Assembly: GCA_963989385.1 (NCBI GenBank)
Contig: OZ022508.1
Coordinates: 52,739,087 to 52,803,086 of the forward strand
Source: Ctena decussata
Taxonomy: Eukaryota; Mollusca; Bivalvia; Lucinida; Lucinidae
Length of the DNA stretch: 64,000 nt
Direction of reading: 5' to 3'
Positions 11,749 through 24,339 of this stretch are shown here, one piece after another. How positions within the stretch are numbered: position 1 is the first letter of the stretch; each line of letters begins with the position of its first letter. Below the pieces are notes generated by a model. The model was not told the DNA's origin and made no database searches. It saw only the letters and a program-made list of their open reading frames with translations. Both the position numbers and the translations under genes were made by a program.

Positions 11749-12485
11749 TTAGAAATATCCTGAAAAGTAATTGTAGTCACTGTCTACTTCTCCATCAGAA
11801 TCGGCCCACTCTCTTTCGTACTGGTCTTCTTGCCTCTCCCGTCGATTCTCTAGCTGATCATTGTAGGAGTCATATCGATTCTCCAAGCGATTCTCCCTTC
11901 TATCAGAACGCGATTCGTAACGGTTTTCAAATCGATCCCTGCGATTATCCCATAAATTTTCTAACCGATCCATCCGATTACCCCATGAATTTTGAGCTCG
12001 ATTGTTGAAAACGTTTTGCCGACGATTACTTCCAGTATTTCTACGATTATTTTGGATGTTTCTACGATTATTTTGGGTGTTTATACGATTATTTTGGATG
12101 GTTCTACGATTATTTTGGGTGTATCTACGATTATTTTGGATGTTTCTTTGATTGTTTTGGATGTTTCTACGATTGTTTTGCGTGTATCTGCCACTACGCT
12201 GTCCGTTAAGATAATTGGAGAGGCGATCCCATCGATTTTCCATTCTGTTTATGCGATTCTCATACCGATTTTCAAGCCTCTCCAAACGGTTTTCCATACC
12301 AGGTCGATTGCCATATCGATTTTCGAGGTGGTCAAGTTGACGATCATATCGGTTTTCAAGTTGCTCTGTTCTTCTATTCCAAAGATTTCGTAAGATGTTC
12401 ATCCGATTATTATTGGAGACATTTCTAGAGCGGTACCTCTGGGGCTGTTGAAACGCTCGGTAGAAGTTATAACTTCCGTACTGCC
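11749..12485 (-). CDS. Asn/Arg-rich heptad-repeat protein, terminal exon (partial gene)
   Basis: The minus-strand frame ends at TAA (11749-11751). An in-frame ATG lies at 12402 (217 codons), but the frame stays open upstream, encoding a Tyr/Gln/Arg-rich stretch (GQYGSYNFYRAFQQ). At 12486 there is a good acceptor, TTTCTATCGTTCCAG, so I read this as the last exon of a spliced gene; the 5' exons were not found. Order from the ATG: repeats built on LENRYDR/ENR (residues 10-62), eight 7-residue repeats of RNIQNNR/RYTQNNR type (72-127), a second ENR block (about 143-190), then an acidic, aromatic tail (SDGEVDSDYNYFSGYF). It has almost no hydrophobic core and no cysteine, so it is probably disordered or fibrous. 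I do not recognise the family; a secreted matrix protein is one possibility, but no signal peptide is visible here. Confidence 0.6.
12022..12189 (-). repeat. Eight 21 bp repeats coding 7-residue units
   Basis: The plus strand reads repeated CTACGATTATTTTGGATGTTT-like 21-mers. On the coding strand these are units such as RNIQNNR, RYTQNNR, RTIQNNR and INTQNNR, ending with a diverged RNTGSNR. The period is exactly three times seven, so the reading frame is preserved. Confidence 0.9.
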
Positions 12486-12632
12486 CTGGAACGATAGAAA
12501 ATCTATAATAATAGCTTATCCGAGAAACCTTTCATACACTTTGTAGGAATAAAGTCGTGCAAATTCGGACAGCAGGTAAATTTGGACAGTGACATTGTTT
12601 CCTTTATATGTCAGTTGTTTAAGAAATAGATC

Positions 12633-12788
12633 AGCTCTAGCAGGGAATTGTTGAGTAATAATTCACTGTTTGTAGGCCAGTTGTAAAGTAGATCATATCA
12701 CGAGCGCGGAGCGCGAGTGATATATCTGCTTACAACTGATCGACAAACAGTGAATTATTACTCAACAATTCAATGCTAGAGTTGAGCT
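12633..12788. repeat. Long palindrome inside the split family 4 element
   Basis: The left arm runs from AGCTCTAGCAGGGAATTGTT through AATTCACTGTTTGTAGG. The right arm mirrors it through CGACAAACAGTGAATTATTA to CTAGAGTTGAGCT. The centre is the GC-rich CGAGCGCGGAGCGCGAG. Confidence 0.75.
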
Positions 12789-13138
12789 ATTTCGATTCTA
12801 ACACTCAAAAACACTGAAAAAGTATTCGCTTCATTCAAAGTCTCCCAACCTTCCTGCCAGCGCGTTCATGCTCCTGCCAATATTCTTAACTGTATCCAAA
12901 GTAAATATACGTTTTTATTGCGATTTTAGAAAGAAAAAGAGACGTTACACCGTCTAACGTCTCAAAACGTCACAAAATTACGTCAGTAATGCCAGTGACG
13001 TCAGCAATTAGACTCGCGCGCTACGAAACTGTGAATTGTTGCAGAATAAAACACGGAAACTTTCCATTGCCTCTATAGGCGCACTGTGTTAGAATTGCAA
13101 TTAAAACAAAATTAACTGGGCAAACAGTGAAAAATCCT

Positions 13139-13245: not shown

Positions 13246-13850
13246 TCTAGCATATTTCAGGCCTGCTCGTATAGTATAGTACCCATGTTAAAAATTCTGC
13301 CGATTTGGAAAGTTCTAATTCTCAAGCTTGTGCCAGTTGACATTTTTGTCCCATTTTATCTGGATGAAGAATTTTGGCGGGTTAATTTTTTCGTGTAAAA
13401 TGATAATTTTTATTTTTCGTTTTCTGCATATAAAATTGTCGTGTAAGGAAATACTTGTCTCACGTCAGTCTGGAGATCATGGAACGACTAAGATTTTATG
13501 TGCCAATGTCAAGGACCGACATTTTCAATAGGACAAAAATTATAAGAATGCATAGGGAAAATGCATTGTTAAAGATTATAAAGGCAAAAATTGACTTTAT
13601 GTCTAATTTAGAAATGACTGGACTACAACCAATGTAGCAAAATACGATTTAACATTTCAGTTTCAGACTATGGGTAATATGTGTTTGGAAAAGAAATTTG
13701 ATGATGTTTTGGACAAAGTTTTAAAAAGAGTAAAAAATCATAGTGGTCTTAACTTTTGTTGATGCACATCCAAAGAGCTGCAGTGTTTTCAAACGTGTTT
13801 TTCATTGTACATTACTGCTTTGGACACGATCAATTTGAACAAGGTCAAAC
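13246..13850. other. Non-coding stretch before the LTR element
   Basis: Three overlapping short open frames exist, but none looks like a conserved protein. The last five bases, CAAAC (13846-13850), abut the LTR and are compared with CGAAC after the 3' LTR. Confidence 0.4.
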
Positions 13851-14445
13851 TGTTACGAAATGGATCTAATCGTCCACTATGTCGTCGAGATTATTTTAAT
13901 CCTTTCAATCAGTAAGGCTACAGTTTTTAGGGTAACTGTGGTAATAAAACATTTACGGAAATTGTGGCTACGTTATGCATGGGTTGTTTGTGAATACCTC
14001 TCGTGGACAGCGTATTGCATGATTTTAAGGTGAATACCTGCACGAGTCTTTTGATTGTGGAAAGCGTGTTGCATGATTTTAATGTGAGACGCATAGTATT
14101 TATACGCCTATCTTTTAATGAAAAGTTAGACGTGGCTGTTTAATTCTTGATGGATGTTATATTGTTGTGTGCCCAGATTCTGTGTTAAGACCTAGAAGGG
14201 TAAGATTTTATTATATTTATTTAGAATAGTTTGGCTAAGAATGAAAAATGTGACTTCTGATTGATATGGTATGATTATATGTGTCGACTGATTTGATTTT
14301 GTTGGCAGTGATCAGGCTGCGCATGTGTCGACCGATTTTGTTAGTAAGCATGCTGCGCATAATATTTGTATATTAGGAAGTTTTGTAAATTTCGGAAATA
14401 GTTTATATCACTGATGTTGGTTGCAATGGTGTGCGTCTATTTGAC

Positions 14446-14633
14446 GTCCAGTGACGTCAATTGCATTCATGTTATTCATGTGACGTCAGTTGCATTCATG
14501 TTATTGCGACGTCAGCACTTTTATATTAGTTTCACTGGTGTCCAGTGACGTCAATTGCATTCATGTTATTCATGTGACGTCAGTTGCATTCATGTTATTG
14601 CGACGTCAGCACTTTTTATATTAGTTTCACGTA
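14446..14633 (+). repeat. 94 bp direct repeat carrying CRE sites
   Basis: Two adjacent copies start with GTCCAGTGACGTCAATTGC at 14446 and 14540. Each holds two TGACGTCA sites plus a CGACGTCA variant, separated by TGCATTCATGTTATT spacers. The same duplicated block is present in the 3' LTR at about 21323-21510. Confidence 0.9.
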
Positions 14634-15783
14634 TACGTGACCTATAGAAGTAGATTGATTTGTAATGGGACTAATTTATATACTCGTGACGTCAATTGAC
14701 GCCATAGCATGCACCGCATTAAGGGTTTTTTCCATAAGTTATAATAGTAACATTTGGTCGTCATGCGCTTGATTTGCCTTCACTAGATGACGTCATATGG
14801 TATAACATCATTGGCGTCATGATGTCAGATCAAACGTTATGATCCCAAATGTGTTAGAAATGTTTATTCAGCTATTATATTCTATGGCAAATGGTATTAC
14901 GCTTAGTTAAAAGAAATGAATTAATACATATGCGAGTTAGATTTTGGTCAATCAATTTAATGTAAATAAGTCATTGTTTAGATTATTCATGTTTTATGTG
15001 GGGTATGTCATGGTAATGCCTGTTGACGTCAGTATACTTCTTGACAATGTTTGACGTCAGATCCTTCGACGCACATGCGTGGTAGGATCTACGTTTCTTC
15101 ATTGGCGGAAGTGGTAAGCACAATTTTGGCTTTACATCGTGAGCGCGAGTCGTGTCTAGTGACACGGCTGGCGTGTGCACGTTATGCTCGGCTTCGCCGA
15201 GGGCGTTGTATGGTATTTCCAAGACAGGCCCAAGTCTTACGTATTGTTATTATGTAGTTACAATGTATTAAGTGTAAGTTCGTTATTTTTAGGCACATCA
15301 AGTCCGGCAGTCAGCTGTTAGGGCTTAGAGCCACGTCTCACCTGGAGATTCGATAAACGTCTCCAGGTTAATACCAACCCGGGTAGAGGCAGTTACAACG
15401 CCGTTTGTGAATGGTTCCTAAGCAGAGGCGGGAAGCACAAAATGTAGGCGGAAGTGGTTAGCACAGTTTTGCCAGATTCTGTGATAAGATCTGAAGGTCA
15501 CATCAAGTGTGGGACAGTGTTCGTCCACTAAGGTGTATTAATATATATATAGACTGGTCCCTGGTACGATCCAGGGAGCGACCAGTATATAATCGTGCAC
15601 GTGTAATTATAAGTTGGTGTTCCTCATGATATATGGACTGGCCCATGACATGATCCAGGGAACGACGAATTGAAGTCTACCAACATAAGGCCTTGTTTTT
15701 TTGTATGAGCTCAAACTAACGTTTTTTGTCCTTTGTGTTTTCCTTTAGTTCATGGCGCTGAGCCGAGTACGGTGTTGACGTCA
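14452..15783. promoter_or_regulatory. Cluster of nine CRE (TGACGTCA) sites in the LTR
   Basis: Perfect palindromic CREs start at 14452, 14481, 14546, 14575, 14697, 14788, 15024, 15052 and 15776; another lies in the leader at 16849. With equal base use about 0.03 would be expected by chance in 2.2 kb. CREB/ATF factors bind this octamer, so a cAMP- or stress-responsive enhancer is inferred. The identical set recurs in the 3' LTR. Confidence 0.7.
15340..15368 (+). other. Hairpin-capable stem conserved between LTR subfamilies
   Basis: ACCTGGAGA and TCTCCAGGT can pair around an 11-base loop. In the solo LTR at 27183-28571 the same stem is kept (27848-27856 with 27895-27903) although its loop is longer and unrelated. 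This suggests selection on an RNA structure, perhaps for packaging, export or 3' processing. Confidence 0.5.
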
Positions 15784-16088
15784 GACGGCAATCTATTTGC
15801 GTATTGTACGCAAATCGATTACAGATTTGAAACAAACACCTTACTTGGGCCAGCGACATGAACTGATATGTGTTGTATATTATTGTAATTGTGACAGTTG
15901 TAAATTGTATTGTTGTATATAGAATTTACATTATATATAAACTTAAAAAATTCTAACGTTGTTAGAGTTTCCTTGTTAGTGTATTACACTAGTAGATAAC
16001 CCTTTAACCGGAAGTCACCCTCCGCCGTCCTGGCGACGCATAAGGCTCTACACCCGTGTCGACCGTGTGTAAAACCTTCTGCGTAACA

Positions 16089-16110
16089 TGGTGTCATGAA
16101 GTAACGGGAT
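16089..16110 (+). other. Probable primer-binding site
   Basis: Directly after the LTR comes TGGTGTCATGAAGTAACGGG. TGG followed by GTGTCA is complementary to a tRNA 3' end ...TGACACCA, as in many tRNA-Leu-type sites, though the match beyond the first eight bases requires gaps. The position is standard for LTR elements. Confidence 0.55.
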
Positions 16111-17032
16111 TTGATTTCCGGTTAATATCTGCCAGTGTAACACATTGACAATATATACAGAATCTAGGCACAATTTTGTCAGTCATTTTTTTTATTATTA
16201 TTGACTTTCTGATTGTTCTTTTCTAAGGTGACGTAAGGCTGTGAATTTTAGGGGAGCAATTTTGCCACTAAATTCTTTGTAAATGTAACCTACACTCAAT
16301 TATAGTCAACTATCCTTATTCCCTGCGTGATGAAGTGCGATAGCCCATGCATTAATTTGTGATAAAATGTAACAGGTTGCATATCTGAGTGGGGAAACTG
16401 AGGTTATATAGACCTGAATTGTCTTGGCACGGATGATACATATTTAGTTTTAAGGTCCATTTGAGTACCTTGGCACTGCTGTTGCATGACAATCTGTAAG
16501 TTTATTAACTTAAACGTTTTGTACGTTGTGTCGTAACCGTTACTGAGGTCCATTTTATGTCCTGATTTAGTAACGTAGGTCACTCGTAACGTTATATAAT
16601 ATCGTTACAATGAATTAAACCTAATAGCGGAATCTTAAGTTTGATTTACCGTTGGTATCCTATAAGGTTTTGTAATGTAGGACGTACAGTTGTCGTGTCA
16701 GTGTTAATACGTTGCGTTACATACGTTACGTTTGTATATCCGATACGCTAGATCAAGTTGGGCGTAATTGTAATGTGGGTTATTTACGTCATCTAATTAC
16801 GTCATCTAATAGTGAAAAGTAATTCTCGGCAAAGTCAACGTCAGTTTATGACGTCATTTCCGGTCTGTTATGAACGTAACTTTAATGGCTACGTCCAGAT
16901 CGCGAGTATACTAATTAATCAACGTTTTAGTTGGATTAGTTCGTTATTATTATTGTTAACGTTTTAGTTAACGTGTGACTATAAGTGAACGTCGGTTTCA
17001 GTTAAGTTAACGTGAGCATTACGTTAAGCGTC
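16111..17032 (+). other. Untranslated leader of the LTR element
   Basis: About 920 bases with no long frame. It contains several ACGTCA-type words and one full CRE at 16849-16856 within TTATGACGTCATTTCCGG. It probably holds packaging signals, but none can be assigned. Confidence 0.5.
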
Positions 17033-19801
17033 ATGGATCAGTTAGTTAAGACGGGAAAGGAGTTAGGTTATGAGGGGCAGGCATTGCAGGAATTTGTAAA
17101 GCAACAGCAAGAGACTGAGAGGGCAGAAAGGCACGCGGTAAGGGAACTTGATAAAGAAAGGATCGCGGCGGAGAAAGAAAAGATTGCGCAGGCCGAAAAA
17201 GATAGGGAAATTGAATTGGCTAGGATCGCGACGGAAGAAGCTAAGATTGCGGCGGATAGGGCGACGGAAGAAGCTAAGATTGCGGCGGATAGGGAAATCG
17301 AGATGGCGCGAATTGAAAGCATAGAGCGGCAAGCCGAGAAAGATAGGGAAGCTAAGTTGTCTCAAGTCGAAAGCGATAAGGAAGCGAAGTTGTCGAGCGA
17401 AGTTGAGTTAGAAAAGTTGAAGTATAGCTTTGAATTGCAGCAACGCGAGTTAAAGAATCAGATAGATTTGCAGAAGGTAACGTTTAGAGTTGAATTAGAA
17501 AAACAGAAGGCTGAAAAGTTAGCGCATGCGCGAGATCCCAAGTTACCGTATTTTGATGAAAGTAAGGACAAAATGGATAGTTACTTATCAAGGTTTGAGA
17601 AATACGCGACGGCGAATAAATGGGATAAAAACGTTTGGGCTGCATATTTAAGCGCATTACTTAAAGGTCGCGCGCTTGATGTCTATGATAGATTGTCTGT
17701 AGATGATGCAGCAGATTATGACAAGTTGAAAGATGCGTTGTTAAAGAATTTTGATATGACTGAACGCGGTTTTAGGAAGAAATTTCGCTATGATAGGCCT
17801 GAAAAGTCCGAAACGTTTATTCAGTTTAGTAGTAGACTTAGGTCGTATCTTAATAAATGGTTAAAAATGGCGAAAGTAGACCAGTCTTACGAAGCTGTTT
17901 GCGATTTTTTCGCTAGAGATCAGTTTTTAGAATCCTGTAGTAAAGAACTATATGTTCATTTGAAACCGAAAACATTCACGAATCTAGGTGAGATGGCTAG
18001 GGAAGCAGATTTATTTGCAGAAGCACGTGGCGGTGTCTACGCTTGTGTTAATAAGGGGCAGCGTGATAGTAAGGGCGTAACTCAGAGTAGATCTGATAAT
18101 AAGCCGAGTGCGAAGCCAGAGATAAAATGTAGTATTTGTGGTAAGGGACATTTAACATATAAATGTTTTAAGAATCCCGATAGGAAGCAAGCATATAGTG
18201 CAGAGGTAGGTGCAAGTGCAAGCGGGTATAGCGGAAGTAAGGGGAGTAGTTATGCACCGAAAGATGAGGCACAAAGATCACAGAGTAAGAGCGATACTGT
18301 ACAGACGAAGGGTAGTAATTCAGATCGTGGCCGTGGTCGGGGTTATTCCCGCGGACGTGGTCGGGGTGGCGGACATCAAATGAGTTTTTGTAAAACTACA
18401 ATGAATAGGTCTCATGAAATTGAAGGTCTCTATAAGAGTAAGGAAGAAGGTCCATTAATCGATAATAACGTGGATAGGGAAGGTGTCTGTTACTTTTCAA
18501 GGTCGCGATTACCAACAGCGCAGGGTACGGTTAATGGTAAGACAGTTGTAGTTTTAAGGGACACAGGTTGTACTGGGTGTGTCGTTCGTAGAAACTTGGT
18601 TTCTAATGATCAGTTACTTGGTAGAGAATCTGATGTAACTTTGATTGATGAATCTACCCAAAGGTATCCCTTAGCAATGGTTGACATAGATTGTCCATTT
18701 TTCACAGGAAAAACTGAGGCATTGTGCATGGAAGATACATTGTATGACCTGGTTATTGGAAATATTGACGGGTCAAAACTTCCCGATATGTCCCATTTTG
18801 CAATGGCGGCAGTGACTAGGTCACAAGCTAAGCAAGGTGAAGAGGTCTATAAGAAACTTAAAGTTCCTGATCAAATTATTGCTAGTGATAAGGAGGCATT
18901 GAAGCAGGCCCAAGTTGTTGACCCTAAATTGAATGGCATAAGGCAAAGAGTGGAATCTGGGAATGTGACTATTAGTCGTGGATTGAACCGAGGTGAAACT
19001 AAGTTTATCCGAAAGAAAGATTTATTGTATAGGCAGTTCACTAAGGGAAACAAGGTCACTTTGCAACTTATTATCCCTGAAGGTTTTCGTGAAAAGGTGT
19101 TAAGATTGGCGCACGAAACCTTGATGTCAGGTCATTTGGGCATAAAGAAAACTATGGATAGAGTGTTAACTGAGTTCTTTTGGCCTGGAATTTGTGGTGA
19201 TGTGGCAAGGTTTTGTAAATCTTGTGACATATGTCAAAGGACTATTCAAAAAGGTCGTGTCACTAAGGTTCCTTTAGGAAAGTTGCCACAGATTGACACA
19301 CCATTTAAACGAGTCGCTGTTGATATAGTTGGACCGATAGAACCTCGTTCTGACAGGAAATCCCGCTATATTTTAACAATGATAGATTATGCGACGAGAT
19401 ATCCCGAGGCGGTAGCGTTACCCGGCATTGAAACGGAACGCGTAGCCGAAGCGTTAGTTGAGATGTTCAGTAGATTAGGAATACCGAGTGAAATGCTAAT
19501 CGAGCATGATAGTAAGATCACGATTGACGTCATGAGAGAGGTTAGTAGGTTGTTGTCGCTTCAAGATCTGACAACTATTCCTTATCAATCTACTAGTAAA
19601 GGACCCGTGGAGAAATTCCATGATACGTTGAAACAGATATTACGTGAAATGTGCGTAGAACGTCCGAATGACTGGGACAGGTATCTCCCAGCATTATTAT
19701 TCGCAGTAAGGGAAGTTCCGCAAGAATCATTAGGTTTTTCCCCGTTTGAACTGTTGTATGGGCGTAATGTTAGGGGTCCTATGCAAATATTAAAGGAATA
19801 G
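17033..19801 (+). CDS. Gag-protease-integrase polyprotein of the LTR element (integrase truncated by TAG)
   Basis: The first ATG in frame is at 17033 (the frame is open slightly upstream from a GTG at 17012), giving 922 codons to TAG at 19799-19801. Order: Glu/Lys/Ala-rich coiled coil (about 15-165); capsid starting near LPYFDES (about 170), whose last third (about 247-332) resembles the SCAN fold region; zinc knuckle CSICGKGHLTYKC (366-378); Arg/Gly-rich basic tract (about 430-447); aspartic protease with DTG at 510-512 and later DLVIGNI; integrase zinc module (H694, H703, C731, C734); and integrase core with D764, D826 and E860. The core looks weakened: D826 and E860 are 33 rather than 35 residues apart, the GxxF motif after the second Asp is absent, and the usual NG before Glu is KG. 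There is no RT or RNase H. The product would assemble particles and process itself, but cannot copy RNA unaided. Confidence 0.9.
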   Translation: MDQLVKTGKELGYEGQALQEFVKQQQETERAERHAVRELDKERIAAEKEKIAQAEKDREIELARIATEEAKIAADRATEEAKIAADREIEMARIESIERQAEKDREAKLSQVESDKEAKLSSEVELEKLKYSFELQQRELKNQIDLQKVTFRVELEKQKAEKLAHARDPKLPYFDESKDKMDSYLSRFEKYATANKWDKNVWAAYLSALLKGRALDVYDRLSVDDAADYDKLKDALLKNFDMTERGFRKKFRYDRPEKSETFIQFSSRLRSYLNKWLKMAKVDQSYEAVCDFFARDQFLESCSKELYVHLKPKTFTNLGEMAREADLFAEARGGVYACVNKGQRDSKGVTQSRSDNKPSAKPEIKCSICGKGHLTYKCFKNPDRKQAYSAEVGASASGYSGSKGSSYAPKDEAQRSQSKSDTVQTKGSNSDRGRGRGYSRGRGRGGGHQMSFCKTTMNRSHEIEGLYKSKEEGPLIDNNVDREGVCYFSRSRLPTAQGTVNGKTVVVLRDTGCTGCVVRRNLVSNDQLLGRESDVTLIDESTQRYPLAMVDIDCPFFTGKTEALCMEDTLYDLVIGNIDGSKLPDMSHFAMAAVTRSQAKQGEEVYKKLKVPDQIIASDKEALKQAQVVDPKLNGIRQRVESGNVTISRGLNRGETKFIRKKDLLYRQFTKGNKVTLQLIIPEGFREKVLRLAHETLMSGHLGIKKTMDRVLTEFFWPGICGDVARFCKSCDICQRTIQKGRVTKVPLGKLPQIDTPFKRVAVDIVGPIEPRSDRKSRYILTMIDYATRYPEAVALPGIETERVAEALVEMFSRLGIPSEMLIEHDSKITIDVMREVSRLLSLQDLTTIPYQSTSKGPVEKFHDTLKQILREMCVERPNDWDRYLPALLFAVREVPQESLGFSPFELLYGRNVRGPMQILKE
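17228..17293 (+). repeat. 33 bp perfect tandem duplication in the Gag coiled coil
   Basis: Two identical 33-base copies (17228-17260 and 17261-17293) encode ATEEAKIAADR twice, extending the helix by 11 residues without breaking the frame. Confidence 0.9.
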
Positions 19802-20542
19802 TGGTCTGTAGAGGAAACTGACCAACGTGCGTTATTGACGTATCAGTACGTTATTGATCTAAAAGAACGTTTAGAGAGAACGTGTAAGTTAGCACAGGAT
19901 ATTGTCCGGAAAATGGACGTAAAGCAGAATGCTTATTATGATAAACGCGCGAGGTCGCGTAAGTTTGACGTCGGAGACAAAGTACTTTTGCTACTCCCGA
20001 ATGAGTGCAATAAATTGTTACTTCAATGGAACGGACCATATGAAGTTGTCGAAGTAGTCAATGCAATGAACTACAAGATTAACGTCAAGGGCGTCGTGAA
20101 TACTTATCCTGCTAACATGATTAAGCAGTACGTTCAACGTCAAAAGAACGTGTCGTCTGCAGTTGTTAATGCACGTGACAATGTTGGATCAGAGGATCAC
20201 AGTGATCCGAATGTCCAAAGAGTTAACATTTGTACGTCAGAGGACGTATCCCAATATGACTTCATACGTGAAAACGTAAAGCCCGACGACGTAACGTCGA
20301 TTCAGAAAGCAAACATGGAAGAACACGGTGGCGATAGTAGATTAGAGGCAGAGGCAACGGATCCTGTGGGATCTGTCGTGCGAAGTAAGTGTAATGTCAA
20401 AGACAACGTTAATTTTACGTCTGATACACTTAAAGGTGGCGATTTCCATCTAGTGTTCGATCAGACTTACCCATACTTCCCCATTCCATTTGAGGCACGA
20501 CAGGTACGACACAGAGAATTGATTGACTTTGGGATTAGGTAA
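19802..20542 (+). pseudogene. Integrase C-terminal region downstream of the in-frame stop
   Basis: The same reading frame continues after the TAG without any shift for 246 codons, to a stop at 20540-20542. Its first part is what normally follows the integrase core: a helical segment (ERLERTCKLAQDIVRKMD), a KFDVGDKVLLLLP strand, and a GPY/F module with WNGPYEVVEVV. After about residue 105 it becomes a low-similarity acidic tail with no recognisable RT start. The stop falls just after ILKE at the junction of core and C-terminal domain, so it either inactivates the integrase or is bypassed. The context TAG-TGG is not a readthrough context I recognise. Confidence 0.75.
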
Positions 20543-20727
20543 ATCCGTGGCCAAGATAATTTGGGGGCGGACTACCTTAGTAGATAGTTTGGCCACGTTA
20601 TGCATCGCACCGTTGTTGTGTATATAGCTAGTTTTCCAGTTTTGACATAGCCTACGATTCGATCGCATTTCGTACTATTTCAGAAAAGAAACATTGTTAT
20701 GTTTTTTTCTCCCTAAGGGGAAACCTA
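20543..20727 (+). other. 3' untranslated part with polypurine tract
   Basis: No frame. AAGGGGAAA at about 20715-20723, five bases before the 3' LTR, is the likely plus-strand primer (polypurine tract). The space where RT-RNase H would lie in a Gmr1-like element is missing. Confidence 0.6.
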
Positions 20728-22969
20728 TGTTACGAAATGGATCTAATCGTCCACTATGTCGTCGAGATTATTTTAATCCTTTCAATCAGTAAGGCTACAG
20801 TTTTTAGGGTAACTGTGGTAATAAAACATTTACGGAAATTGTGGCTACGTTATGCATGGGTTGTTTGTGAATACCTCTCGTGGACAGCGTATTGCATGAT
20901 TTTAAGGTGAATACCTGCACGAGTCTTTTGATTGTGGAAAGCGTGTTGCATGATTTTAATGTGAGACGCATAGTATTTATACGCCTATCTTTTAATGAAA
21001 AGTTAGACGTGGCTGTTTAATTCTTGATGGATGTTATATTGTTGTGTGCCCAGATTCTGTGTTAAGACCTAGAAGGGTAAGATTTTATTATATTTATTTA
21101 GAATAGTTTGGCTAAGAATGAAAAATGTGACTTCTGATTGATATGGTATGATTATATGTGTCGACTGATTTGATTTTGTTGGCAGTGATCAGGCTGCGCA
21201 TGTGTCGACCGATTTTGTTAGTAAGCATGCTGCGCATAATATTTGTATATTAGGAAGTTTTGTAAATTTCGGAAATAGTTTATATCACTGATGTTGGTTG
21301 CAATGGTGTGCGTCTATTTGACGTCCAGTGACGTCAATTGCATTCATGTTATTCATGTGACGTCAGTTGCATTCATGTTATTGCGACGTCAGCACTTTTA
21401 TATTAGTTTCACTGGTGTCCAGTGACGTCAATTGCATTCATGTTATTCATGTGACGTCAGTTGCATTCATGTTATTGCGACGTCAGCACTTTTTATATTA
21501 GTTTCACGTATACGTGACCTATAGAAGTAGATTGATTTGTAATGGGACTAATTTATATACTCGTGACGTCAATTGACGCCATAGCATGCACCGCATTAAG
21601 GGTTTTTTCCATAAGTTATAATAGTAACATTTGGTCGTCATGCGCTTGATTTGCCTTCACTAGATGACGTCATATGGTATAACATCATTGGCGTCATGAT
21701 GTCAGATCAAACGTTATGATCCCAAATGTGTTAGAAATGTTTATTCAGCTATTATATTCTATGGCAAATGGTATTACGCTTAGTTAAAAGAAATGAATTA
21801 ATACATATGCGAGTTAGATTTTGGTCAATCAATTTAATGTAAATAAGTCATTGTTTAGATTATTCATGTTTTATGTGGGGTATGTCATGGTAATGCCTGT
21901 TGACGTCAGTATACTTCTTGACAATGTTTGACGTCAGATCCTTCGACGCACATGCGTGGTAGGATCTACGTTTCTTCATTGGCGGAAGTGGTAAGCACAA
22001 TTTTGGCTTTACATCGTGAGCGCGAGTCGTGTCTAGTGACACGGCTGGCGTGTGCACGTTATGCTCGGCATTCGCCGAGGGCGTTGTATGGTATTTCCAA
22101 GACAGGCCCAAGTCTTACGTATTGTTATTATGTAGTTACAATGTATTAAGTGTAAGTTCGTTATTTTTAGGCACATCAAGTCCGGCAGTCAGCTGTTAGG
22201 GCTTAGAGCCACGTCTCACCTGGAGATTCGATAAACGTCTCCAGGTTAATACCAACCCGGGTAGAGGCAGTTACAACGCCGTTTGTGAATGGTTCCTAAG
22301 CAGAGGCGGGAAGCACAAAATGTAGGCGGAAGTGGTTAGCACAGTTTTGCCAGATTCTGTGATAAGATCTGAAGGTCACATCAAGTGTGGGACAGTGTTC
22401 GTCCACTAAGGTGTATTAATATATATATAGACTGGTCCCTGGTACGATCCAGGGAGCGACCAGTATATAATCGTGCACGTGTAATTATAAGTTGGTGTTC
22501 CTCATGGTATATGGACTGGCCCATGACATGATCCAGGGAACGACGAATTGAAGTCTACCAACATAAGGCCTTGTTTTTTTGTATGAGCTCAAACTAACGT
22601 TTTTTGTCCTTTGTGTTTTCCTTTAGTTCATGGCGCTGAGCCGAGTACGGTGTTGACGTCAGACGGTAATCTATTTGCGTATTGTAGTACGCAAATCGAT
22701 TACAGATTTGAAACAAACACCTTACTTGGGCCAGCGACATGAACTGATATGTGTTGTATATTATTGTAATTGTGACAGTTGTAAATTGTATTGTTGTATA
22801 TAGAATTTACATTATATATAAACTTAAAAAATTCTAACGTTGTTAGAGTTTCCTTGTTAGTGTATTACACTAGTAGATAACCCTTTAACCGGAAGTCACC
22901 CTCCGCCGTCCTGGCGACGCATAAGGCTCTACACCCGTGTCGACCGTGTGTAAAACCTTCTGCGTAACA
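20728..22969 (+). repeat. 3' LTR of the Gmr1-like element
   Basis: 2,242 bp, the same ends and content as the 5' LTR. Differences seen by eye: one base inserted (TCGGCATTCGCCGAG against TCGGCTTCGCCGAG), three inserted in GTAGTACGCAAATCG, and two substitutions (CATGATATATGG to CATGGTATATGG, AGACGGCAATC to AGACGGTAATC). The two indels account exactly for the 4 bp length difference. Confidence 0.95.
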
Positions 22970-24339
22970 CGAACTTCACATGTATTCAGAGTTGTTATGG
23001 GCCTTTGAAGTTCTACTGATTTACATTGGGAAGGACAGAAAGTTTCTAAGACGTCATAGACTTGAGTAATTGTTGTACAACTAATGAGGCATTGAGGGAG
23101 TACGAAGCTTAGTTAGCTCTTTCGGATTGTGTTTTTTTTTACAGAATTATGTCACTTGCTTATTAAAAAAGCTTGCCCGCATGCTAGAATGTGCAGTTTC
23201 AATGGATCTTTTTGAAACATATACACATTATTGATATGTAATAGCCTTTAGGTTCTTAATCTATCTTTTCTCTCTAATCATTAAAATTTATTATAATTTA
23301 CACTGTGTTTTGAATAAGCCGACAGGACGTCTCGAGATTGTTCCCCTTTGCAACAATGTCGAAAGTCGAAAAAAATATGAAAATGTATCCATTATTCCTA
23401 CACCTTGAAAAATGCAGGGTTAACATCCTTTTTGACAGCTTTTTTATATTTATTTTTATTGGGATGTTATAATTTGCATAAACCTAATGGCCTTTGATAT
23501 GTTTTTCCTAATATCATAATTAACGTCATTATTACATTAATTAAAAATCCCATTTAGACAACCAGGCGATTTTTATTTGCATAATATAATGAGATTTGCA
23601 TGCTGTGGTTCACCTACTACATGTATTTCAATATTTTTGCAGCTTCATGTGTTAACTTGTTTAACAACGCTGTGATTGATTAATGGGTTTCTTGTGACTT
23701 GACTAAATCACCTCAAATATTAATACAATAACCGTAATCATCACAAATTTATACAGTTTTGTATACTACCCAGCCATTTAAAATAGCAACACTTAAGAAA
23801 GGCCGTTGTGACGTCATATGTCGCTCTTCACATTTTATTCTACACATATACGATTCTACAGCCTCTGCACTTCATAATGCACACTTCATGGTTTATATTC
23901 ATTGTTTGATGGGTAACGTTTATAACAGGCTGAATATCTCAAATTGCTCAATGATGATAAGGTGTCATCAGTCAGATTCTTGAACGGCAATGTCTGGGCT
24001 TCAAGAATCAATTGACAAAAAAACAGCAACAACAACAAAAAACAAAAAAAAAACTTTGAACCCTATTTCCAGGTCCCTTAGAATTTGCTGTATTTCAGTC
24101 GGACTAGTCTATATTTTACATACATCATACTTCACACACTTCGTATTTCGAGTCACACTTTATATCAACTTTTGACTCCTCACTTCATACTCTCCACTTC
24201 TGTCTTCCAACTTCACAGTTCGCGTTTCAAAACTAATCGTTTTAGTTTTCGCATCGTTTCGACAAGTCAGAAAATTTCGTTCACCCAACCATGGAATCGT
24301 CAAAATTGATACGCACACTTTATTAGTAAAGGTATCGGA
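22970..24339. other. Non-coding stretch after the LTR element
   Basis: It starts with CGAAC, the candidate target duplication. No gene is visible. Around 24080-24230 and again at 24640-24740, short ACTTC/GAAGT words recur, suggesting a very decayed repeat. An A-rich tract lies near 24020-24055. Confidence 0.4.

Follow-up and report, generated by a model that had tools for sequence, protein, structure and literature searches.

Architecture of the element

A stretch of 64,000 nt from the lucinid clam Ctena decussata (GCA_963989385.1, contig OZ022508.1, positions 52,739,087 to 52,803,086; referred to here as the window) carries, at 13851-22969 and on the plus strand, a long terminal repeat (LTR) retrotransposon that codes for Gag, protease and integrase. 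It belongs to a class without reverse transcriptase (RT), named here class B, which shares its genome with class A, an RT-bearing element of the order Gag, protease, integrase, RT and RNase H. The terminal hallmarks of a Ty3/Gypsy LTR element are present, namely TG..CA ends, a primer binding site, a polypurine tract and a short target duplication, the last being imperfect in the window, where the 5' flank CAAAC (13846-13850) pairs with CGAAC (22970-22974) in 4 of 5 bases. The 5' LTR (13851-16088, 2238 nt) and the 3' LTR (20728-22969, 2242 nt) have the inverted ends TGTTACG/CGTAACA and differ from each other by two substitutions and two short indels. The putative primer binding site (16089-16105), whose TGG abuts the LTR end, and the polypurine tract (20715-20723), placed 4 nt 5' of the 3' LTR, have been assigned by their sequence and position. 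A single Gag-protease-integrase frame runs from an ATG at 17033 to 19798 (the same frame is open over 17006-19801). In this frame a coiled coil, seen by eye, is followed by the capsid (17534-18058), a CCHC zinc knuckle recognised from its motif (18128-18169), the DTG of an aspartic protease (18560-18568), the integrase zinc module (19073-19243; residues 690-746, Integrase_H2C2, Pfam PF17921, E 1e-19) and the integrase core, which scores under the Pfam cut-off. The frame is closed by a TAG at 19799-19801 and resumes in the same phase at 19802-20542, where it codes for the C-terminal part of the integrase, with a GPY motif spotted by eye, and then for a B-specific tail with a conserved end segment and a stop codon. 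Among 29 B copies, only the one in the window has the TAG (0 of the other 28 carry it), which rules out a stop codon common to the class or a recoded one. In fact, the copy in the window is a recently inserted, now stop-damaged member of class B; the long coding frame described in the first-pass annotation does read from Gag to the integrase core, but it is cut by this private codon.

As that annotation had proposed for a Gag-protease-integrase element devoid of RT, no Pfam match to RT or RNase H has been found in the four window frames scanned, the five other listed frames being antisense. Directly 3' of the tail stop, and in frame with it, lies a relic of 45 nt (20543-20587; 14 residues and a stop) that matches the very end of the RNase H of complete relatives. 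Therefore, an RT-RNase H segment has been removed from between the tail and the relic, in accordance with the earlier suggestion of a loss downstream of integrase. Full-length relatives with RT, for which the annotation had suggested a search, do exist in the same genome as class A loci, and they have integrase ahead of RT; for example, the A relative P0001 has integrase at 608-775, RVT_1 at 1092-1250 and RNase H at 1316-1447. The tail itself was compared with the N-terminal stub of RT in four pairs, in which 1, 12, 53 and 164 of 1000 shuffles reached the observed score; an origin of the tail as such a stub is suggestive only.

The capsid had been likened to the SCAN domain. By sequence this likeness is weakly supported, the SCAN match being below the Pfam cut-off, and no SCAN entry is present among the 50 structure matches listed in either of two capsid comparisons. 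The structure model (pLDDT 89.3), of the Arc/MLV/PNMA2 type, suggests a retroviral/Arc/PNMA-type capsid fold. A Foldseek search with this model gave no match at E ≤ 0.001, and the capsid sequence has only two matches in PDB at E ≤ 1, both to unrelated enzymes.

Two compositional peculiarities of the element have also been recorded. Each LTR contains nine TGACGTCA palindromes (within 14452-15783 and 21329-22661), and the window holds 29 versus 0.7 expected, a duplicated 77-nt unit accounting for part of this number; the palindrome is of the CRE/ATF type. Over 14001-22000, the element body, the GC skew is 0.16-0.26 in 2-kb bins, and elsewhere in the window the bins range from -0.08 to 0.15.

Two classes with one backbone

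Copies of both classes were sought in the host genome (1.66 Gb, 245 contigs). A 32-mer from the B integrase core has 388 exact places and one from the A RT has 686, with 0 for the reversed control in each case. When the B piece 19802-20539 served as a protein query, 150 of 2440 candidates were scored; 115 of these had frames of 1140 aa or more, and none exceeded 1206 aa. Over the matched stretch, 111 of these 115 long frames are stop-free and 4 have one stop. The corresponding search with the A RT scored 132 of 4053 candidate places, 103 of which had frames of 1500 aa or longer. These protein searches score the best candidates only, and their counts lean to young, intact copies. The many near-identical copies with the same layout that the first-pass annotation had proposed to look for are thus present, and the 388 places and 115 long frames rule out a single-copy deletion. 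As for age, the two LTRs of a copy diverge by 0-0.41% in B (8 copies) and by 0-0.65% in A (9 copies, over the 1.2-1.3 kb fetched, which is part of the LTR); no LTR pair was obtained for L018 and L021. The two classes are about equally young. An exact 5-bp target duplication flanks 4 of the 4 other B copies in which both outer flanks were read. It was also seen, in one case by eye, around 6 of the 8 A copies attempted; the other two stretches missed the LTR end. Among nine B copies, counting the window, four have exact duplications, the window has its imperfect one, in three the far end was not located and one stands in tandem.

Other arrangements have been observed within class B. At G000:C3:13985162-14012477 there are five B-core matches with an exact spacing of 6821 nt, like tandem B bodies sharing LTRs, and another tandem pair lies at C12:61724797/61731623. 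Length classes of LTRs exist as well, three B copies (L019, L023 and L026) having LTRs of about 1.15 kb versus the usual 2.1-2.3 kb.

For a population comparison, 20 other copies were fetched from the 39 others listed as resembling the window leader, of which 11 were A, 8 were B and one (L024) lacked the class region and was excluded from all A/B counts; with further B copies and the window, 11 A and 29 B copies were compared. Over 17523-19467 no position is fixed between A and B, and the same single nucleotide polymorphisms (SNPs) segregate in both. As far as 19122, the differentiation index Fst keeps within the range of -0.04 to 0.04; the three 100-nt bins that follow have 0.21, 0.11 and 0.02. 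From 19468, the first fixed difference, Fst rises to 0.89-0.96 and each bin contains 13 to 33 fixed differences (the alignment reaches about 19804); in the rest of integrase-C (the integrase half of the divergent block) A and B are 74-75% identical, and the tail has no A counterpart by blastn. Behind the B stop there is one fixed difference, with Fst 0.41, and in the leader, the LTR start and the LTR end Fst is again -0.04 to -0.01, with SNPs common to A and B. The B-specific block can accordingly be placed at 19468-20560, ending just behind the B stop, its 3' limit being approximate. The trees follow the same pattern: the 5'-region tree has 8 class changes, within the range of 6 to 11 obtained in 200 label shuffles (25 of 200 gave 8 or fewer), and the tree of the start of integrase-C has one. 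Therefore, A and B exchange nearly everything but the block; LTR, leader, gag, protease and the first half of integrase are one A/B recombining pool. The distinct RT-less lineage of the first-pass annotation holds in that many copies share the layout, but what sets it apart is confined to the integrase-C/tail block. The obvious route of exchange would be template switching within common particles, and frequent recombination within an LTR family has been reported for Onsen, according to the available part of the source (PMC5668417).

The block is not perfectly sealed against this exchange. Two RT-bearing loci (L049 and L050) have a B-type integrase core with differing crossover points, that is, they are A/B recombinants. 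Of 60 B-core places on contigs C1-C2, one lies within 5 kb of an RT 32-mer, at a distance of 1042 nt.

The altered integrase and its conservation

Alignment of the B integrase to those of prototype foamy virus (PFV) and Ty3 puts D773 (19322-19324, within the part shared with A) at the first Asp, E833 (19502-19504) in the place of the second Asp and E869 (19610-19612) at the third acid, the aligned PFV and Ty3 residues being the catalytic ones. The frame for the element's own Gag, protease and integrase is retained, the last of which had been annotated with a perhaps, but Glu replaces Asp at the second catalytic position in 29 of 29 B copies of the own genome, and the same Glu is found in all 63 proteins with a B-type core motif (123 proteins examined). 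The third Glu is likewise kept in 29 of 29 own copies and in 58 of 58 of those 63 proteins in which its motif was found. A structure model of the integrase (mean pLDDT 57.8) was not used, and no work on an Asp-to-Glu change at the second integrase acid was found in the openly licensed PubMed Central (PMC) literature. One possible explanation is that the B integrase is catalytic with Glu at the second position, so that B would be missing RT-RNase H only. An acid is indeed kept at this position and at the third one throughout the copies and proteins just counted, and the spacing from 833 to 869 equals that of partner A. On the other hand, conservative changes of the DDE acids of retroviral integrases usually abolish or strongly reduce activity, and on balance an active enzyme of this kind may be regarded as possible rather than probable.

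The block has been found in a second source. Among the best 120 of 468 matches of a protein search was a second set of RT-less proteins, about 1180 aa long, that share the tail and the altered motif. A search with the tail alone listed 65 proteins, which come from a single database source and do not exceed 1228 aa; the second set is treated as one species by assumption. In integrase-C, the B proteins of the two sources are 83.1% identical, more than A and B within a source (73.5% in the window genome and 76.5% in the second source, the latter with a truncated A protein). The capsid behaves in the opposite way, A and B being 98.9% identical in the window genome and 90.8% in the second source versus 77-78% between sources. 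In the integrase-C tree, the six B rows form one clade (SH-aLRT 100), and the 5'-region tree groups by source. These trees argue, therefore, for a single origin of the block that predates the separation of the two sources. A recent one-off deletion of RT in an A element that was then amplified would explain why A and B nearly match in the rest of their sequence. Within the block, however, the DNA of the integrase half differs from A by 26%, and the second source has the block as well, together with tail and stop; this origin is very improbable. Such long persistence of B beside A, together with the retention of the zinc module, the first Asp, the third Glu and the C-terminal part around an altered second acid, would also suit a regulator, in which the B integrase is a dominant-negative subunit that damps A and keeps the pair stable in the host. 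Since A is abundant and young, the damping could not be strong, and a regulatory role of this sort is quite unlikely. A pattern search of the contigs of other species for related elements gave 42 matches and 0 relatives. Candidatus Thiodiazotropha are symbionts of lucinid clams; two RT-bearing relatives are labelled as bins of these bacteria, and the element sequence in them is most likely host DNA.

The substitution pattern within the block has been examined in two ways. Between the window and one A copy, integrase-C has a nonsynonymous divergence (dN) of 0.173 and a synonymous divergence (dS) of 1.46, a ratio of 0.12; by piece, the ratio is 0.094 for the core and 0.135 for the C-terminal part, rough values from a single pair in which the core dS, 2.06, is near saturation. 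Among shared variants within B integrase-C, nonsynonymous and synonymous changes (N:S) stand at 4:16 in the 29 copies (P 4e-6) and at 1:8 in the nine copies chosen by leader DNA, window included (P 4e-4); partner A has 0:8 in the same region. Judged from these ratios (dN/dS between A and B of about 0.12), the B block is under purifying selection, and because of this selection the B integrase is probably made and still used. Alternatively, B could be a pure parasite whose proteins are irrelevant, moving on A proteins by means of the LTRs and packaging signals of A, with a frame that is intact only for the youth of the copies and the refreshing of the 5' part from A. The homogenised 5' part, the young copies and a weakly constrained tail (P 0.065 in 29 copies and 0.11 in nine) would all be expected of such a parasite; however, the block, which A does not renew wholesale, has nevertheless a ratio of about 0.12 against A, the less biased set of nine copies gives 1:8, most scored B copies have the long frame, and the residues are conserved in the second source. 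Pure parasitism is thus unlikely.

A probable semi-autonomous partner of class A

Taken together, class B is best explained as a semi-autonomous RT-less partner of A, with a selected block of its own and a backbone shared by recombination, a reading to which a probability of roughly 0.8 may be given. In this partnership, B would code for Gag, protease and an integrase with the second catalytic Asp changed to Glu, and its RNA would be copied by an RT-RNase H that it does not encode, in the simplest case that of A in shared particles; such trans-mobilisation would most simply involve mixed particles made of the Gag of both classes. The integrase of A, perhaps with that of B as a partner, would then insert the product. 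Co-packaged A and B RNAs would recombine by template switching and thereby keep the backbone current, and the diverged 1.1-kb block (second half of integrase, tail and RT deletion), probably formed once before the two sources separated, would persist as the B allele. As to its role, the B integrase would most likely be a poorly catalytic or non-catalytic partner of the A integrase, or else a structural or packaging part of Gag-Pol. It may even be speculated, with considerable reserve, that A and B are two alleles that have long coexisted in one retroelement population, recombining freely outside the one block, and that the B integrase, having lost the canonical triad, has been repurposed as a dedicated subunit, non-catalytic or with a different catalysis, in a mixed A+B integration complex, B being a specialised partner instead of a decaying deletion.

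Several observations weigh against the partnership. Twenty of the 28 fetched B copies were drawn from a list ranked by protein score. Among the best 120 of the 468 listed proteins, 3 are RT-less and have the tail together with an A-type catalytic motif, with varied switch points, and L049 and L050 carry the B-type core beside RT; the loss of RT and the altered acid coincide as a rule, not by necessity. The near-saturated core dS makes the divergence ratios rough, and the constraint on the tail is not significant (N:S of 5:6, P 0.065, in 29 copies; 3:4, P 0.11, in nine). Finally, integrase-C is 83.1% identical between the two sources in B versus 94.9% in A; this faster change in B indicates that constraint has been relaxed or shifted. 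If the partnership nevertheless holds, it is of significance because an RT-less element might persist for long by having its backbone kept identical to that of its helper through recombination while one block of its own is protected and selected. The A/B pair separates what an element has to have in common with its helper from what may diverge, and it poses a testable question, namely why an RT-less element keeps an integrase with a changed catalytic triad.

Non-autonomous LTR elements with partial coding capacity are known, such as the deletion types of intracisternal A particles (IAP), TR-GAG and the LTR-swapping pairs of soybean; to our knowledge, none of them has a conserved triad-altered integrase beside the loss of RT. 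Among the matches listed from the openly licensed PMC literature, which leaves subscription journals outside, no title or abstract describes an RT-less element with an altered integrase. By gene order, Gag, protease and integrase preceding RT-RNase H, partner A resembles the Gmr1-like Ty3/Gypsy elements, a clade in which integrase stands before RT according to the available parts of two sources (PMC6238403, PMC8220671). The likeness of A lies in this order and perhaps in the weak SCAN-like capsid match; B differs from the Gmr1-like elements in being without RT-RNase H. Close parallels to B come from wheat, where the available text describes RLG_Sabrina_SA and RLG_WHAM, with the partner RLG_Wilma, as semi-autonomous RT-less GAG-protease Gypsy elements (PMC9744471). 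Like B, they are high-copy and protein-coding, lack RT and have a proposed mobilisation by an autonomous partner; unlike B, as far as this part of the source goes, they lack integrase too and have minimal homology to the partner (PMC9744471), whereas B keeps an altered integrase and is in one recombining pool with its partner outside one block. Another example is the pair RLG_Quinta/RLG_Cereba, in which the non-autonomous element contributes GAG to an autonomous one as B may do for A, although without an integrase in the portion of the report at hand (PMC11302176). In grasses, non-autonomous pararetroviruses show concerted evolution of regulatory sequence with autonomous elements, so that a defective partner is kept by region-specific recombination, as B would be; according to the part of the article available, it is noncoding regulatory sequence that is homogenised there (PMC5491270), in contrast to B, where the LTR, the leader and some 2 kb of coding sequence are affected. 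Tos17 of rice is also a mobile LTR element without an essential coding part, but it is a Copia element and what it lacks, in the available part of its description, is gag, the opposite half (PMC3977881). Troyka was considered and is not B, its termini and duplications being different in the accessible section of the paper (PMC12440569). Elements that code for GAG and protease but not RT, with a partner that does carry RT, are hence already known, and what differs here is the retained, altered and selected integrase and the sharp block within shared sequence.

Outside the element, two repeats have been noticed upstream of its 5' LTR: a tandem repeat with a 21-nt unit at 12001-12210, and an inverted repeat at 12623-12793 with 64-nt arms that are 89% complementary and separated by a spacer of 43 nt.

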